Below, piece by piece: positions 1,165 through 21,183 of a stretch of DNA of 23,079 nt. The stretch lies in IMG/VR virus record IMGVR_UViG_3300033146_005561, positions 1-23,079 of that record. One strand, given 5' to 3'. The notes below the pieces were generated by a model. That model had not been told where the DNA came from. It was given only the letters and a program-made list of their open reading frames with translations, and made no database searches. Position 1 is the first letter of the stretch. Every line of letters starts with the position of its first letter. The position numbers and the translations under genes are program-made. The DNA is from a virus.

Positions 1165-2796
1165 TTACACATCCTCCCTTATTCTAATAAAACTATCACC
1201 AGTTGTATTAGACTCTCTTTCAGCCACATCATTCCAATATAAATAATTACCATGTGCATCATAATTACCACTACTATCTGTTATAGAAAAACCTCTCACA
1301 TGATCATTTAAATCAGAATAAAAAGTCATAGTAATTAAATCTTTATCAACTGCATGTAATTTAGATGTATCTGACACATAAGTACCTAAAGGCATTTTAA
1401 TTGCTTGGGGATCAAAATAAATATCTCTTTCAACAAAACCTCCAATAACATAAGTATCATCATTTGATCCAGAGGTATCTATAGTATTCTGTGTAAGTCC
1501 TGCTAAATTCTGAGCACTTAAACTTTGCCAGTTATAGGTACCATTAGTATCATTATCATCTATAGTTATTGTAGCATTAAAAACGCTGCCTGGAGTTGAG
1601 CCAGAAAAACTACCCAAGGAACCTTCCGGGGCTGATAACGTAGGAACAGCGCGTAACCATTGATTAGAATGAATAGTTACTGTATAATCTTTACCATTAG
1701 GATCATGTTGAAATCTAGCTGAATTTTCAGTAATCCAAACAGTAGGTAAAACATGAGCTATATAAACAGTAGTTGTAGCTGTTGTTTGAGCATTATTAGC
1801 AGTTCTAATTGCTATTGCCTTAACATTAGCATTACTTACATTATAATCCCCTGACTGACGAGTTACAGTTTTAGTAGATTCATCTAAATTAGGATCTGTA
1901 ATAGTAAGTTCATTTGTAGGAGAACTATAAGCAATTGTATTTAAATCAGAAGTAGTCATTGCTATAGTAGCAGTCTCAGTATTTTTTAAAGCATCAAATC
2001 CAGAACTATAAGTTATTGTCCCAAAAATAACTGTTGGATGTAAATCATTACATTTAATTAAATGCACACCATCAGTTGTACCACCAGTAGCATTAGTATC
2101 TCTATAGGCACCAAAAGTTCCAAAATCATTTTTAGCCCTTACACGGCCCGGCAAACTTTGAACTGAATTAGAAGTATTATCTACTGTTCCAGTAATAACT
2201 ACCTTATGATTAGCATCTGGAGTAATATTATTATGAATACTATATTTCATAGCCCCGAAATCTGCAACCTCTATAGATACAGGTGTAGGACTATTAGGAT
2301 CAAAAGTTACTTCTAAATCAAAAGTATCATTAGCCTTAACTTCTGTTTGAGAACCAGGATAACCATTTACAAATTCAACATTTGTAATAACTGGCCCTGC
2401 TCCTTGATATTGAAAAGGTACTTCTGCAATAGTTCCTTGATTATGCATAGCTACAATACCAGAGGTAGTAGCATCTACAGGAATTGTAGCAGAACCCACA
2501 AAACGTCTAGAATCAGAAGATATAGGTTGACCATTAGTTACAGTTACACCATTAATAACTACTGTACCATTCCAGTCATAAGCTATACCATCCCATTCCA
2601 CAGTTACTATTATTGTAGAATCATCGGATTTAATAAGTTCTGGTAATTGTTTCCCTATAACACCAGACTTATAATCCATTCTAACAATACCACTACCTCC
2701 AGGAGCAGCATCGGTGATAAAAATACCACCATCCATTCCTTCGGTATAATCACCGTTATCATCTACATACAAAAATCTTGCTTTATATGTTGTCAT
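1165..2796 (-). CDS. Large Ig-like repeat virion adhesin
   Basis: A 543-residue protein with a clear AAGGAG ribosome-binding site before ATG 2794-2796. Residues 4-23 carry a variant of the shared N-terminal motif (ARFLYVDDNGDYTEG). The rest is rich in Thr, Ser, Asn, Asp and Val, with a beta-sandwich-like pattern and recurring hydrophobic strands such as PVITNVEFVNGYPGSQTEV and HPTVIFGTITYSSG. This is the usual look of stacked Ig-like domains in phage surface proteins. No signal peptide, membrane segment or enzymatic motif is visible. It lies between two proteins with the shared beta domain but has no copy of it. The inferred role is a fibre shaft or an Ig-like surface adhesin; the exact number of Ig domains cannot be set by eye. 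Confidence 0.72.
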   Translation of the reverse strand: MTTYKARFLYVDDNGDYTEGMDGGIFITDAAPGGSGIVRMDYKSGVIGKQLPELIKSDDSTIIVTVEWDGIAYDWNGTVVINGVTVTNGQPISSDSRRFVGSATIPVDATTSGIVAMHNQGTIAEVPFQYQGAGPVITNVEFVNGYPGSQTEVKANDTFDLEVTFDPNSPTPVSIEVADFGAMKYSIHNNITPDANHKVVITGTVDNTSNSVQSLPGRVRAKNDFGTFGAYRDTNATGGTTDGVHLIKCNDLHPTVIFGTITYSSGFDALKNTETATIAMTTSDLNTIAYSSPTNELTITDPNLDESTKTVTRQSGDYNVSNANVKAIAIRTANNAQTTATTTVYIAHVLPTVWITENSARFQHDPNGKDYTVTIHSNQWLRAVPTLSAPEGSLGSFSGSTPGSVFNATITIDDNDTNGTYNWQSLSAQNLAGLTQNTIDTSGSNDDTYVIGGFVERDIYFDPQAIKMPLGTYVSDTSKLHAVDKDLITMTFYSDLNDHVRGFSITDSSGNYDAHGNYLYWNDVAERESNTTGDSFIRIREDV

Positions 2797-9191: not shown

Positions 9192-10607
9192 TTAGTTAAT
9201 TAAATAGTATACATAAGTTCTGTGGCCACAATCCCAAATACGATCATAACCTTGTTCACGTCTTAATTCCCATTCAGTTTTATTTGTTAATTTTTCAGAG
9301 GATGTTTTTCTAAGAGTAAAATTTCGCCATCTTTGGCCTGCTTTAATATAATGAGGAGTATACTTAGTAAAACCTTCTAATTCAAAACCAAGAACTTCAT
9401 AAACAGGTTTAAAAATATTAGCATAACGCATATCACAATAAGATTTAATAAGTTCATAATCATTATCTTCCGCATAAATTCTTATGGCTTTAAATAATTT
9501 GCCTGCTCCTCCTACAATAGAAACATCTAATAAAGAACAAAACCTTTTCAGCTCTAAAATTTTTTTACCTGAATTTGTATGTTTTCTTATTAAATTACCA
9601 GCACTAGCAACTGCTACTAGTTCATCTTTATAAAATAAACCATATCTAATTAATGCAGTAGATTTTCCTTGTATATGATTGTTTTTAAAAAAAGTATTAG
9701 CTGTTTTAGAATCAATTTCTATTAACTGACATTTTCTAGCAAAAATTCTTTGTTTAGATTTATATAAAGCTTGTCTAATTCTAGAAAATACTATGGAAGG
9801 CTTATTTAAAAGTTCATCTTCAAAAATAGTTATTAAACGAATACCTTTATCATAACAAGCCATCATTTTATTATAATGATAAGATCTAAGTCTCCCAGAA
9901 CTTAATTCCCCGTGCCAATATAAACCACATACTTCTATTGCTAAATTATATTCTGGAAAATAAAAATCAAGTTCTTTAGGTGATATAGTAGACCTATCAT
10001 TGTAAATAACTTTTACATCTGAAAATTCAGCTTCTATAAAATCACGTACTAACTGTTCAGGTTTAGAAACATAATTATTTTGTAAATAACAAGTCATACA
10101 TCTATTATTATTATGATAATAATTATACCAAGTAGTTTCCCATAAATGACCTTCAGGACACTTAACTTTTAAAATACTTGTATGTGTATTTTTATATTTA
10201 GGAGCACCCACTAAAGTATAATTATCCTTAGATAATTCCTTTTTTATATCCTTTAATTTATTTGATTTATTAATAATTCTATTATATTTTCTTAAAAACT
10301 TTCTTTTCTTAGATCTGATTATTTCAGTCTTTCTACTATTTTGTTTTTTACGTTTTTTATTACATTCTTCTGAACCACAATAAATTTTCTTAGGATAATA
10401 AGTTGAAAATACCTCGCCACAAAAAGGACAAGTACGTATAAAAGCTTTTTTCTCTTGCTGACGTAATAAAGTTCTTTTTTTATCTCGCTGTTGTTGCTTT
10501 AATTTAATAGCTTTATCTTTACAGTTTATACAATATTTTTGTTTAGGACTAGTAGGTATATAATAATCCTCACATAAATAACACTTTTTTTCTTTAAAAT
10601 TTGCCAT
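9192..10607 (-). CDS. Free-standing homing endonuclease (Vsr-like/EDxHD type)
   Basis: A 471-residue protein, ATG 10605-10607, with a weak AAGG ribosome-binding sequence. The N-terminus holds zinc-binding pairs at C9/C12-C26/C29 and C60/C63-C77/C82, and a third group at C150, H154 and C170/C173 (CPEGHLWETTW). Residues about 183-285 form a PD-(D/E)xK/Vsr-like nuclease: ELDFYFPEYNLAIEV (D214, E225), GLYWHGE (H232), a YHYNKMMACYDKGIRLI helix-strand and IFEDE. The C-terminal ~180 residues (from ARKCQLIEI, through SIVGGAGKLFKAI and CDMRYANIFKP, to YDRIWDCGHRTYVY) match the GNAT-like domain often fused to phage homing endonucleases. It sits directly after the major capsid gene behind a terminator, and is inferred to be a selfish element cutting a site in intruder-free related phages near this locus. 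Catalytic residues are assigned by eye. Confidence 0.85.
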   Translation of the reverse strand: MANFKEKKCYLCEDYYIPTSPKQKYCINCKDKAIKLKQQQRDKKRTLLRQQEKKAFIRTCPFCGEVFSTYYPKKIYCGSEECNKKRKKQNSRKTEIIRSKKRKFLRKYNRIINKSNKLKDIKKELSKDNYTLVGAPKYKNTHTSILKVKCPEGHLWETTWYNYYHNNNRCMTCYLQNNYVSKPEQLVRDFIEAEFSDVKVIYNDRSTISPKELDFYFPEYNLAIEVCGLYWHGELSSGRLRSYHYNKMMACYDKGIRLITIFEDELLNKPSIVFSRIRQALYKSKQRIFARKCQLIEIDSKTANTFFKNNHIQGKSTALIRYGLFYKDELVAVASAGNLIRKHTNSGKKILELKRFCSLLDVSIVGGAGKLFKAIRIYAEDNDYELIKSYCDMRYANIFKPVYEVLGFELEGFTKYTPHYIKAGQRWRNFTLRKTSSEKLTNKTEWELRREQGYDRIWDCGHRTYVYYLIN

Positions 10608-16881: not shown

Positions 16882-19800
16882 TTATTTCTTTTTAGTTAAT
16901 AAAGCTGCAGACATCACGGAAGCATCTAAAGATGCTACAGGATGTTGTACACTTTGCCAAGAAGAGGTGTCTCTTTGTCTAACCATACCTCCAGAAGAAA
17001 ATAAAATATGTGAGTCATCTTCTGTATCTAACTCATGTTCTAAAGCTTTTATACCATAACAAGCTAAAATAAAAGCTGAATACAAGTCTTTATTCTGTCC
17101 TTTTTTAGGAGTATCAAAATGTAAAGCTCCTCCAGAAGTTTGTGTAACTACAATACTTGTACATTGTCTTTTTAAAACTTCTATTTGCTCATACTCTTCT
17201 GCATCCATATCTTTAATAGATTTAATGGGAGGTTCTGGAAAACGTACTTTCTTATCTTCTAATAAAGCTAATGTAGCAAAATTAGCATCAGATATCCATC
17301 CAGTATTAAAAGCTATAACTTCTAATATATGACGACCTTGACGTTTAGAATTTTCCTTTTTATTCCTATCTAGGATAGGTTCATAACCATTATAACCTTC
17401 CTCCAATAAATCACTTACAGCTTTACCACCCCCGCCACGATCCATAAAAATACGAACAACTCTATAGGAGTCACATACTTGTTGTATAGCAGTAGTAATA
17501 TCTTGAGTAGTTTTACCTGATAAAGCCATAACTCTAACTACTCTATTAAAATCACCACTTAATTTTACAACAACTAAACCACATTTAGCACTACCACCTT
17601 GATTAGGGTCAATACCTATAATATAAGAACTTTTAGGATCTCCCACATACTCCATTTTAAAATCATTACCAAAAGTACAATCATCTAATAAAGAAGCTTT
17701 AAAAAATCCTTCAGAATCAGATACCATGTCTGCCATGTATTCCATACGAAATTCATGATCAGACATAACTCTTCTAGCGTTAGTTATATTTTTTTCATCA
17801 AGAAAACCTTCTGGAAGTAACGTATAAGGTACTTGAAAAATAGCATGATCTTTGGAGCCTTCATCTATAAGCCTCCAATACTCACGCATACGTTTATACA
17901 TATGATTAAATTTATAATAACCAGAAGAAGTACCTATCATTTTATTAATTGCATCTTCTTCAAAATCCTCTTCTGTAGCTAAACCAGCTTCTATTAAACG
18001 TTTCCTACGTTCTAATTCTCTAACTTTCTTCATAGGATCTAATTTAGTAATACTCATAGGAGCTAAAACAGTTTCAATTATTTTTTGAGGTACTTGTGCA
18101 AATTCATCTATTAAAATACAATAAAATCTAGAACCACGAATTTTCGCTCCATCTGCACCTAAGGGTAAAGCTTCAATAAAAGCACCATTATAACCAGAAA
18201 CAGATCTAAATTTTAAGTAACAAGTATCAGAACCTCTAATAGGTCTTTTAACTGTAGCTTCTCTTAAAATAGGTGATTGATCATATAATTTTTCTACTTC
18301 AGCAAATAACATTTTTGAATTATGGCTTATAAAACCTGAAGAAAAATAACAAGATTCATTTTCTACTTCTATATCCATTGTTTCAGCAAACATATGCTCC
18401 TTACTTTTAACTTGCACAAAATAATAATCTTGATCTAAATACTCTTTATAAGTATTAATATTTTTATCAACTATATTTTGTGGTAATCCTAAATAATTAG
18501 CTACTGATATATCAGTGTTGAAATGCTCTTTAATATAATTATTAAGTTTAGTTTTTTTTCTAACTAATTTAAATAAACCTTCTGTATTAAACTTCTCTAA
18601 ATTACGCCTACCTGTTATTCTTACCTTATAAGATTCTGCACATTTTGATAGTTTATCTCTACCAAGTAATTTCTTCTCACAAGCTCTACTAGCTATAGTC
18701 AAATTAGACATTACACCTACATTAAGTAAAAAAGATTGGTATTCCTTAGCTAACTGTTTAGATGAAGTGTTTAAAGTTACTTCACAATGATCGCTACCAC
18801 TTTTATGTATTTGTACATAACAACAACCATCTGTATCCATTAGTCCTTGGATAAAGCTTACAAAGCACTCCTTTGATGATCTTTTAATAATGTGTGGTAT
18901 TTTTTTATCCAAAGCTGTAGTTTTAGTAAAACCACACTCTAATAAAAATATGACTAATTTTTTACAGTAATAGGTTATTTGAGGACATCTATTTTTTTGA
19001 TTTCTATCTGTAGTGACTATATTAAAATACTTCAACATAGTACTTTCAAAAACTTCCAATAACTCTGGATCAGCACTTGTAAACATTATTCTATATTTTC
19101 TTCCTGTACTATCAATAGAAATACACCCATCACCTATAAGTAAACCAAATAAGTAAGCTAAATCTGGTGTTAGTTCTGTTGGAATAGTACAATCCTTTGT
19201 ACGCCAGTCATGTTCAAATGTATAAGTGGGTAATGTGTTATTATCTCCAAAATAATTAAATCCTGATTTTACAAGTAAATAATCTCCTCTATTTAAATCA
19301 CACATATCTTTGAAACCAATCTTACCACTTTCAACATCCAAGGCTAATACACCATGATCAGCTGTTCCGCTCAACTCAAAACCTTTTGTAGTTTTAAGCT
19401 TAACACAATCACGTTCATCATTTTTCCACTTACTTAGGATGGTGTTTTGAGAATATTGTGATTGGACTTTGGTCACACCTTCTTCTACAATATCAAACAA
19501 TTTTTCAGTGCTGGTAACCAAACCTTCTGATGTCCAGAATGTATCGTAAGTGCTTGAAATTACGAGACTTTGGCGAAAGCTGGGCGCTATGAGACCCACC
19601 CTATATCCAGGATATAATAAACAAAGTAAAGAAGCTAAAACTCCAGATAAAAAAGTATTATGATTTATAAAACCATTAGTTATATAATTCGGTTCTTCTC
19701 CTTCTTCCATGGCCATTTCAAAATCATAACAATCACCTTGCCAATCTAAAACACTTACTACTGTATCATAATAATAATGTGTATCTCTTAATATTATAAG

Positions 19801-21183
19801 TTTTTTAAAGGTGTCATCTAAGACTTCATTTAAATCTTCTACTCTATTATTTATTATACCTAATAAAGTAGTTAATTTTTCTAGAAAAGAATATCCTATT
19901 TCAGATGTTTCTGGTATGTCAAAAGAGGCATCCCATTCTTCTATAATATCACCATGAATACTTTTACATAAATCTACTGTTTGTTTGCATACATCATACA
20001 AACCAGGAATAGTATCATGAATAGTATTTGGAACTTTTCCTCCAAAACATTGTAATACAGCATCATGATGTTCTTTTATTCTAAAACCTATTAATTTTCT
20101 ATATTTATAGGCTTCTTCAGAAGTTATTTCTAACTTATATTTTTTCTCGAACTTAGATGTCCCATCTATATGTATAGAAGAAATAACACCAAAGTTTAAA
20201 AGAAGTTGTTGTAATTCTACAAACAATTTTTTAGAAGTAGATTCACAAGTAATATAACCATTCAATTTATTTATATTACATGAAACATCAAAAAAACCTT
20301 TGAGAAAGGCTTTCTGTACTCCCTCATCACCTATACGAACAAAATAAGGAACACCTTTACCATATAAAAATAAATTTTTAAGCATATAATGCTCAATAAA
20401 ATCTTCCATAGCAGTAGCTGTAAAACTAAAATTATTATTCTTTTTGGGAGCAGGTTTTCCAGGAAGGACTAAAGGTGGTAAACTTTTTTTAAGAGGTATA
20501 GCATTATCTTTACAGTAAGTTCTTAAAAACTTTAGAATAAGATCTTCTTCTGTTTTTATTTCTAATTTTTTAGAAGGCTGATAAACACCAGCACCCATTA
20601 AAATACCTAATAAATAGGCATCATCAAAAGGCATAGCGTAAGAACCAAACAATTTTTGGCCGCGCTTAATACAAATTCTATCTCCAAAAGTTAACTCATC
20701 TAATCTTTTATAAACTAAATTACATGCACTATCTATAGTTAAAATAGGATGATGATCACTACCTCTTTTTACTAAACCTATTTGAGTTATAACTTTTTTA
20801 CCTTTAATTTGTTTTTCTAAACACAAATTTTTTATCGGACGATAACCTTTATCAGTATATAAAATGTCATCATATTTTATTACAATATCTTCCCCAGCAT
20901 CTAAAAAGTCGGGCACTTTAGGTAGGACTTCATCTAAATAAACTAAACCTTTACCCATAAAAAAACCAAACTCTTTTATATAAACGCTTTTACCAAAACC
21001 ACGAGAACAAACAGCCAAAGTATAAGGCTTAAACCACATATCTTCGAAAACAACACGTTGAATTGGAGCTAAATCTACACCTAATAAATCATAAGCTGCT
21101 ATACAAGGATTATCTCTATAAAATTCAATTAAATCAGGACCTTGTGATAAAACAACATCCATCTTTTTAGATATATTACCCAT
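16882..21183 (-). CDS. terL: Terminase large subunit precursor with two inteins
   Basis: A 1433-residue precursor; ATG 21181-21183 overlaps the small-terminase stop by one base (TAATG), with GAAGG upstream. It is the packaging motor ATPase and headful or cos nuclease. Removing residues 66-509 and 539-955 leaves a 572-residue extein, normal for this family. In the spliced protein Walker A reads CSRGFGK|TFLSG, Walker B is YCILIDEF (D1026, E1027), and GTSSGYY (from 1084) is the coupling motif. The RuvC-like nuclease has GIDPNQGG (D1192), FMDRGGGG (D1248) and NKDLYSA (D1366). ATPase function is impossible without splicing because intein 1 interrupts the P-loop. The next gene, the portal, starts 55 bases downstream. 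Confidence 0.93.
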   Translation of the reverse strand: MGNISKKMDVVLSQGPDLIEFYRDNPCIAAYDLLGVDLAPIQRVVFEDMWFKPYTLAVCSRGFGKSVYIKEFGFFMGKGLVYLDEVLPKVPDFLDAGEDIVIKYDDILYTDKGYRPIKNLCLEKQIKGKKVITQIGLVKRGSDHHPILTIDSACNLVYKRLDELTFGDRICIKRGQKLFGSYAMPFDDAYLLGILMGAGVYQPSKKLEIKTEEDLILKFLRTYCKDNAIPLKKSLPPLVLPGKPAPKKNNNFSFTATAMEDFIEHYMLKNLFLYGKGVPYFVRIGDEGVQKAFLKGFFDVSCNINKLNGYITCESTSKKLFVELQQLLLNFGVISSIHIDGTSKFEKKYKLEITSEEAYKYRKLIGFRIKEHHDAVLQCFGGKVPNTIHDTIPGLYDVCKQTVDLCKSIHGDIIEEWDASFDIPETSEIGYSFLEKLTTLLGIINNRVEDLNEVLDDTFKKLIILRDTHYYYDTVVSVLDWQGDCYDFEMAMEEGEEPNYITNGFINHNTFLSGVLASLLCLLYPGYRVGLIAPSFRQSLVISSTYDTFWTSEGLVTSTEKLFDIVEEGVTKVQSQYSQNTILSKWKNDERDCVKLKTTKGFELSGTADHGVLALDVESGKIGFKDMCDLNRGDYLLVKSGFNYFGDNNTLPTYTFEHDWRTKDCTIPTELTPDLAYLFGLLIGDGCISIDSTGRKYRIMFTSADPELLEVFESTMLKYFNIVTTDRNQKNRCPQITYYCKKLVIFLLECGFTKTTALDKKIPHIIKRSSKECFVSFIQGLMDTDGCCYVQIHKSGSDHCEVTLNTSSKQLAKEYQSFLLNVGVMSNLTIASRACEKKLLGRDKLSKCAESYKVRITGRRNLEKFNTEGLFKLVRKKTKLNNYIKEHFNTDISVANYLGLPQNIVDKNINTYKEYLDQDYYFVQVKSKEHMFAETMDIEVENESCYFSSGFISHNSKMLFAEVEKLYDQSPILREATVKRPIRGSDTCYLKFRSVSGYNGAFIEALPLGADGAKIRGSRFYCILIDEFAQVPQKIIETVLAPMSITKLDPMKKVRELERRKRLIEAGLATEEDFEEDAINKMIGTSSGYYKFNHMYKRMREYWRLIDEGSKDHAIFQVPYTLLPEGFLDEKNITNARRVMSDHEFRMEYMADMVSDSEGFFKASLLDDCTFGNDFKMEYVGDPKSSYIIGIDPNQGGSAKCGLVVVKLSGDFNRVVRVMALSGKTTQDITTAIQQVCDSYRVVRIFMDRGGGGKAVSDLLEEGYNGYEPILDRNKKENSKRQGRHILEVIAFNTGWISDANFATLALLEDKKVRFPEPPIKSIKDMDAEEYEQIEVLKRQCTSIVVTQTSGGALHFDTPKKGQNKDLYSAFILACYGIKALEHELDTEDDSHILFSSGGMVRQRDTSSWQSVQHPVASLDASVMSAALLTKKK
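18319..19569 (-). other. Intein 2 in terL, with intact-looking LAGLIDADG endonuclease
   Basis: This intein covers precursor residues 539-955 (417 residues), inserted at FRQ|SKMLF. It begins with Ser 539 (SLVISSTYDTFW, block A with EGL), has block B GTADHGVLAL (T607, H610) and ends with block F/G (MDIEVENESCYF, SGFISHN), followed by Ser 956 as the +1 nucleophile. The endonuclease blocks are LFGLLIGDG (D685) and FIQGLMDTDG (D785), both keeping the metal-binding Asp before Gly. It is therefore likely to be active in both splicing and homing. Boundaries come from motif reading and may shift by a residue. Confidence 0.9.
19657..20988 (-). other. Intein 1 in terL, splicing motifs kept, endonuclease degenerate
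   Basis: This intein covers precursor residues 66-509 (444 residues), splitting Walker A between Lys 65 and Thr 510. It starts with Ser 66 (SVYIKEFGFFMGKGL, block A), has a block-B-like GSDHHPILTI (S142, H145) and ends with DCYDFEM and NGFINHN, then Thr 510. Two LAGLIDADG-like blocks are recognisable, but both lack the catalytic Asp: LLGILMGAG (Ala 198 in the Asp position) and LKGFFDVSC (Ser 301, with Gly replaced by Cys). It probably still splices, since the terminase needs it, but has probably lost homing. Confidence 0.9.

Follow-up and report, generated by a model that had tools for sequence, protein, structure and literature searches.

In mycobacteriophages, the TerL1-a intein is inserted between the invariant Lys and Thr residues of the P-loop of the large terminase (TerL); the part of the report by Kelley et al. 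2016 on which we draw presents sites a-e of the TerL1 family as separate insertions and describes no two-intein TerL, and the five of its seven TerL intein types that were tested all spliced (PMC5050341). The terminase of the cultivated Psychrobacillus phage Perkons (MT325768) carries an intein at the same GK|T site (GFGK|C...GFISHN|T, where the bar marks a junction). TerL proteins with two inteins have been described in cyanophage Mic1, where the large intein is reported with an endonuclease domain and the second lies in the nuclease domain (PMC7156551), and in the crAss-like Delta phage OBYQ01000140, where both are in frame (PMC7886860). Archaeal MCM harbours neighbouring ATPase inteins, one of them after the Walker A lysine, with a sporadic occupancy that is restricted by the +1 residue (PMC10643990). 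In this system, Turgeman-Grott et al. reported that the homing of two neighbouring active inteins is mutually hindered, and raised the question of how frequently an endonuclease-less intein travels with an endonuclease-bearing neighbour (PMC10643990). Mycobacterium smegmatis DnaB has a P-loop intein without endonuclease and a second intein with one (PMC6195587), and two closely spaced inteins, 48 residues apart, are found in the Pyrococcus abyssi CDC21 gene (PMC8966425).

The terL gene described here lies in a window of 23,079 bases (the whole stretch of DNA that was analysed), which is a single viral metagenomic contig fragment. Its first intein occupies the TerL1-a site, a likeness of position. 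The Perkons intein is about 27% identical to one site-1 intein of the clade to which the window belongs but differs in being single and Cys-1, with intact LAGLIDADG motifs. As in Mic1 and OBYQ01000140, two inteins share one TerL; however, the second intein of the window follows the first after only 29 residues, unlike that of Mic1, and OBYQ01000140 is distinguished by Hint-Hop inteins and recoded stop codons. Archaeal MCM differs in being a cellular helicase, and both of its endonucleases are active in Haloferax mediterranei (PMC10643990). The division of labour seen in DnaB, with the endonuclease in the second intein, recurs here, but in DnaB the P-loop is occupied by a class 3 mini-intein (PMC6195587) whereas the P-loop intein of the window is a Ser-1 intein with a full-length, degenerate endonuclease domain. 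The P. abyssi inteins are both mini-inteins and reside in an archaeal host gene (PMC8966425). Two-intein TerLs, closely spaced inteins and the TerL1-a site are already known, and the arrangement of the window is not unique; in the open-access literature we found no description of a TerL clade with three neighbouring ATPase-domain sites, recurrent double occupancy, a triple or a 29-residue spacing.

The terL frame is uninterrupted from 16882 to 21183 on the minus strand, starts with an ATG codon and encodes 1433 residues. It comprises the following features:

16882..21183, minus strand: terL, intein-containing precursor of 1433 aa; matches to terminase large subunit families phrog_2 and phrog_5909 in its C-terminal part
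20989..21183, minus strand: N-extein, residues 1-65, ending with the P-loop SRGFGK (20989-21006)
19657..20988, minus strand: intein 1, 444 aa, residues 66-509; Ser-1, block B GSDHHPIL, C-terminal GFINHN, +1 Thr
20590..20592, minus strand: intein 1 LAGLIDADG motif 1, GILMGAGVY, catalytic Asp replaced by Ala (residue 198)
20281..20283, minus strand: intein 1 LAGLIDADG motif 2, FFDVSC, catalytic Asp replaced by Ser (residue 301)
19570..19656, minus strand: middle extein, 29 aa, 87 bp, TFLSGVLASLLCLLYPGYRVGLIAPSFRQ
18319..19569, minus strand: intein 2, 417 aa, residues 539-955; Ser-1, block B GTADHGVL, C-terminal GFISHN, +1 Ser
19129..19131, minus strand: intein 2 LAGLIDADG motif 1, catalytic Asp of GLLIGDG
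18829..18831, minus strand: intein 2 LAGLIDADG motif 2, catalytic Asp of LMDTDG
16882..18318, minus strand: C-extein, residues 956-1433 plus stop codon, with Walker B and RNase H-like nuclease motifs
18100-18126, minus strand: Walker B, FYCILIDEF, in the C-extein

The extein contains SRGFGK|T, FYCILIDEF and IGIDPNQGG, as in Terminase_6-like large terminases, the last of these being accompanied by two further RNase H-like nuclease motifs, IFMDRGGGG and NKDLYSA. The gene that follows matches portal proteins, and an intein-free relative of the window TerL, L012, gave Pfam Terminase_6N and Terminase_6C matches above cut-off; the AlphaFold model of L012 was poor (pLDDT 64) and was left out of the analysis. 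When the 1433-residue precursor was scanned with Pfam, Intein_splicing matched in two stretches (E 4e-19) and LAGLIDADG_3 in three (E 2e-32). The sequence-only reading had proposed two Ser-1 inteins in this gene, at residues 66-509 and 539-955, over a span (18319-20988) bounded by the start of intein 1 and the end of intein 2, with the 87-bp middle extein in between. Both pairs of junctions proved exact: intein 1 begins at S66 within the P-loop and ends at N509 (SRGFGK|SVYIK...GFINHN|TFLSG, that is K65|S66...N509|T510), and intein 2 begins at S539, 29 extein residues further on (APSFRQ|SLVIS...GFISHN|SKMLF). Excision of both in silico yields, as had been predicted, an ordinary TerL of 572 residues with its motor and nuclease motifs. 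The alignment with intein-free TerLs that had been proposed as a check gave the same boundaries, as 55 unique relatives (among the matches listed) read straight through both sites (GRGFGK|TFLxG and P[S/V]FRQ|[S/A]KMIF; for example GRGFGK|TFLSG and APSFRQ|AKMIF). The junctions are therefore set by homology, beyond motifs alone, with the host protein continuous across each of them.

Since these 55 relatives lack the inserts, the latter are not TerL domains, and the refutation that the earlier reading had named is thereby ruled out. Origin of the two-intein pattern by chance is excluded. That the window derives from one metagenomic contig fragment lends some room to a chimeric assembly, but the frame is open throughout, the empty sites in relatives are exact, and the search for the same insertion sites in viral metagenomes, also proposed earlier, recovered full inteins at both sites in 11 unique TerLs, the doubles coming from many metagenomes. 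We consider the probability of an artefact, whether a chimera or misread TerL domains, to be negligible.

The sequence-only reading had not remarked on an asymmetry between the two inteins. Intein 1 retains the features of class 1 splicing (S66, GSDHH and GFINHN|T), but both of its catalytic aspartates are replaced, with GAG in place of GDG and DVSC in place of DTDG, while the splicing motifs are intact. Scanned alone, it matched LAGLIDADG_3 (Pfam E 3e-10) and Intein_splicing (E 1e-7; 32.0 bits, below the curated cut-off of 35.8). Its AlphaFold model (pLDDT 83) agrees with Pfam on a HINT plus LAGLIDADG fold, the best solved matches being the intein endonucleases TliVMA (7qss, E 1e-17) and PI-PfuI (1dq3), with PI-PkoII and PI-SceI also among the top matches. 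Judged from its sequence and its predicted structure, intein 1 is thus a full-length intein with a putatively dead endonuclease and not a mini-intein; because both catalytic aspartates are replaced, it is not predicted to be an active homing element. Throughout, an endonuclease is called dead when its catalytic residues have been lost in the sequence. The decay extends beyond the active site: compared with site-1 inteins with live endonucleases, the splicing regions of intein 1 are 53% identical on average and its endonuclease region 29%, a gap of 0.24 (0.06-0.13 in live inteins, 0.11-0.27 in dead ones; dead versus live, p 5e-5). The terminal branch of the window measures 1.97 in the site-1 intein tree versus 0.22 in the extein tree. 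Intein 1 alone as a query found no relatives, because its sequence is so diverged, and these were retrieved with an alignment of same-site inteins. Intein 2 has its splicing motifs (S539, GTADH and GFISHN|S) and both catalytic aspartates (GLLIGDG and LMDTDG), its identity gap is 0.06, and by its motifs it looks fully active.

We then classified both sites in TerLs collected from viral contigs, using as queries the C-extein, both inteins and the extein alignment. After removal of repeats, the sample comprised 109 unique TerLs among the matches listed, all of one uncultivated phage clade; the collection of bacterial and archaeal genomes yielded no relative of the window TerL, and its identity to TerLs of isolated phages is only about 27%. 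Both inteins are complete in at least 11 of these 109 TerLs (the window, L004, L063, L070, L095, L102, L105, L111, L113, L114 and L124), which were drawn from many separate metagenomes. L138 (IMGVR_UViG_3300031601_001372) is a triple truncated by the end of its contig: of the site-1 intein the final eight residues are left, and full inteins fill both site 2 and a third site just before Walker B (DG|C...FFSHN|SKIRG). Sites 1 and 3 are both filled in three further TerLs (L097, L122 and L127). The TerL gene of crAssphage cr53_1 (L292), which has in-frame TAG codons, bears a single intein at another site (GTGGDEG|C...GIITHN|S).

In an intein-unbiased sample of 84 TerLs, found by the extein alone and scorable at both sites (among the matches listed), 55 have neither intein, 14 have site 1 only, 9 have site 2 only and 6 have both; the excess of co-occurrence at sites 1 and 2 was not significant in these 84 TerLs (odds ratio 2.6, p 0.18). 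The earlier remark that two inteins within 30 residues are unusual is therefore only partly right: doubles make up about 7% (6/84) of this intein-unbiased sample, 11 complete doubles and the triple were found in the clade as a whole, and both two-intein TerLs and closely spaced ATPase inteins have been published. On the extein tree, occupancy changed at least 24 times at site 1 and at least 23 times at site 2, a pattern to be expected from recurrent intein gain and loss. The +1 residue at site 2 is Ser in all 30 occupied alleles, and Ala in 9 of the 79 others (occupied versus empty, p 0.06). Alanine at this position is unable to act as a splicing nucleophile. Proline is likewise unable to serve at +1 in MCM (PMC10643990).

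Taken together, these data make it very probable that this phage large terminase combines an old P-loop intein, no longer mobile by itself, with a separately acquired second intein that still looks mobile. Two LAGLIDADG inteins from separate, site-specific lineages would have invaded TerL, in two distinct acquisitions, and the scatter of doubles over the tree shows that such pairs originated on many occasions in a single TerL clade. Intein 1 would be the older resident, an age that its decay suggests, still able to splice but not to home; intein 2, with an endonuclease that is intact in sequence and presumably active, would be at the homing stage. An origin of the pair by intragenic duplication was rejected, as inteins of the two sites are only about 25% identical in cross-matches and those of the window both resemble the same-site inteins of relatives far more closely.

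The two sites are only 87 bp apart, and the endonuclease-dead intein 1 might instead spread as a passenger, by co-conversion when intein 2 homes, the relaxed need for its own endonuclease having allowed that domain to decay. The dead-plus-live state of 5 of the 11 doubles and the raw surplus of doubles whose site-1 endonuclease is dead fit such a scenario, and co-homing is described as the only route by which an intein without endonuclease could home in doubles of this kind (PMC10643990). However, when the extein was taken into account, intein-1 and intein-2 distances among the 11 doubles were not correlated (partial Mantel r 0.02, p 0.41, in a sample that is small and deep), a negative result that speaks against co-homing as the main route. 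L063 and L070, whose exteins are 80% identical, share only 53% identity in intein 2 and 46% in intein 1, showing that pairs were not inherited or moved jointly at such depth, and no co-homing was seen in the haloarchaeal data (PMC10643990). We regard this passenger scenario as unlikely. Given the uncorrelated distances and the L063/L070 comparison, separate assembly of the doubles, with each of their two inteins apparently acquired on its own, is most likely.

Is the death of one endonuclease linked to double occupancy? Dead site-1 endonucleases occur in 8 of 11 doubles versus 4 of 16 singles (Fisher raw p 0.022), but this excess was not significant on phylogenetically independent pairs, which lean in that direction (about 4 for, 1 against) but are too few. 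For site 2 the corresponding numbers are 3 of 12 doubles versus 0 of 14 singles (p 0.085). Among the 11 complete doubles, both endonucleases are alive in 3, the second alone in 5 and none in 3. One dead and one live partner is therefore not the rule, and the link between doubles and a dead site-1 endonuclease is a lead, not a result. It is conceivable, though we lean against it, that double-intein alleles persist or spread preferentially once the endonuclease of one neighbour has died, so that pairs tend to have at most one mobile partner; if true, such a drift would resolve the two-cut interference reported in archaea. For the window, the two-cut conflict by which double homing is impeded in haloarchaeal MCM should be lifted by the dead neighbour. 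The sister TerLs L113 and L116 have in common a highly diverged, endonuclease-dead site-1 intein, and site 2 is filled only in L113.

With separate acquisition as the preferred origin, expression would proceed by translation of the whole precursor and excision of each intein by the standard Ser-1/Asn-terminal pathway, using the +1 Thr of intein 1 and the +1 Ser of intein 2. As the motifs and the empty-site relatives suggest, splicing would rebuild the ATPase P-loop and the following strand, and a functional TerL would need both excisions; that packaging would depend on two splicing events, as the earlier reading held, is a sound inference. The location of intein 1 in the ATP-binding site, with splicing motifs preserved while the endonuclease decays, could also suggest a regulatory switch, in which the inteins keep TerL inactive until packaging conditions are reached and the P-loop intein is retained for that purpose. 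A function of this kind has been suggested for the pair of inteins in Mic1 TerL (PMC7156551) and put to the test in M. smegmatis DnaB (PMC6195587). However, half of the relatives lack both inteins and occupancy changes often, so that this function would be dispensable, and an essential gene by itself enforces the maintenance of splicing with no need for regulation; we consider such a switch very unlikely.

The clade displays the two sites, separated by 87 bp, in many natural states (empty, single, double, one triple, with live or dead endonucleases) in a gene essential for packaging, and the question of Turgeman-Grott et al. is thereby testable in phages. Recognition of both inteins also matters for annotation, as a 1433-residue TerL can otherwise be overlooked or assigned the wrong size.

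Elsewhere in the window, the tail sheath, head and portal genes constitute a structural module. The tail sheath gene (1165-2796, minus strand; PHROG 15433, E 4e-82) implies that the phage probably has a contractile tail. No match to Rfam was obtained in the window, which therefore contains no known intron class. A gene for a free-standing putative homing endonuclease of 471 aa (9192-10607, minus strand; PHROG 3339/559, E about 1e-73), with a weak Vsr-like match, lies immediately downstream of the gene for the major head protein. An HD-domain protein (PF01966, E 2e-8) is encoded at the contig end (22697-23068, minus strand).
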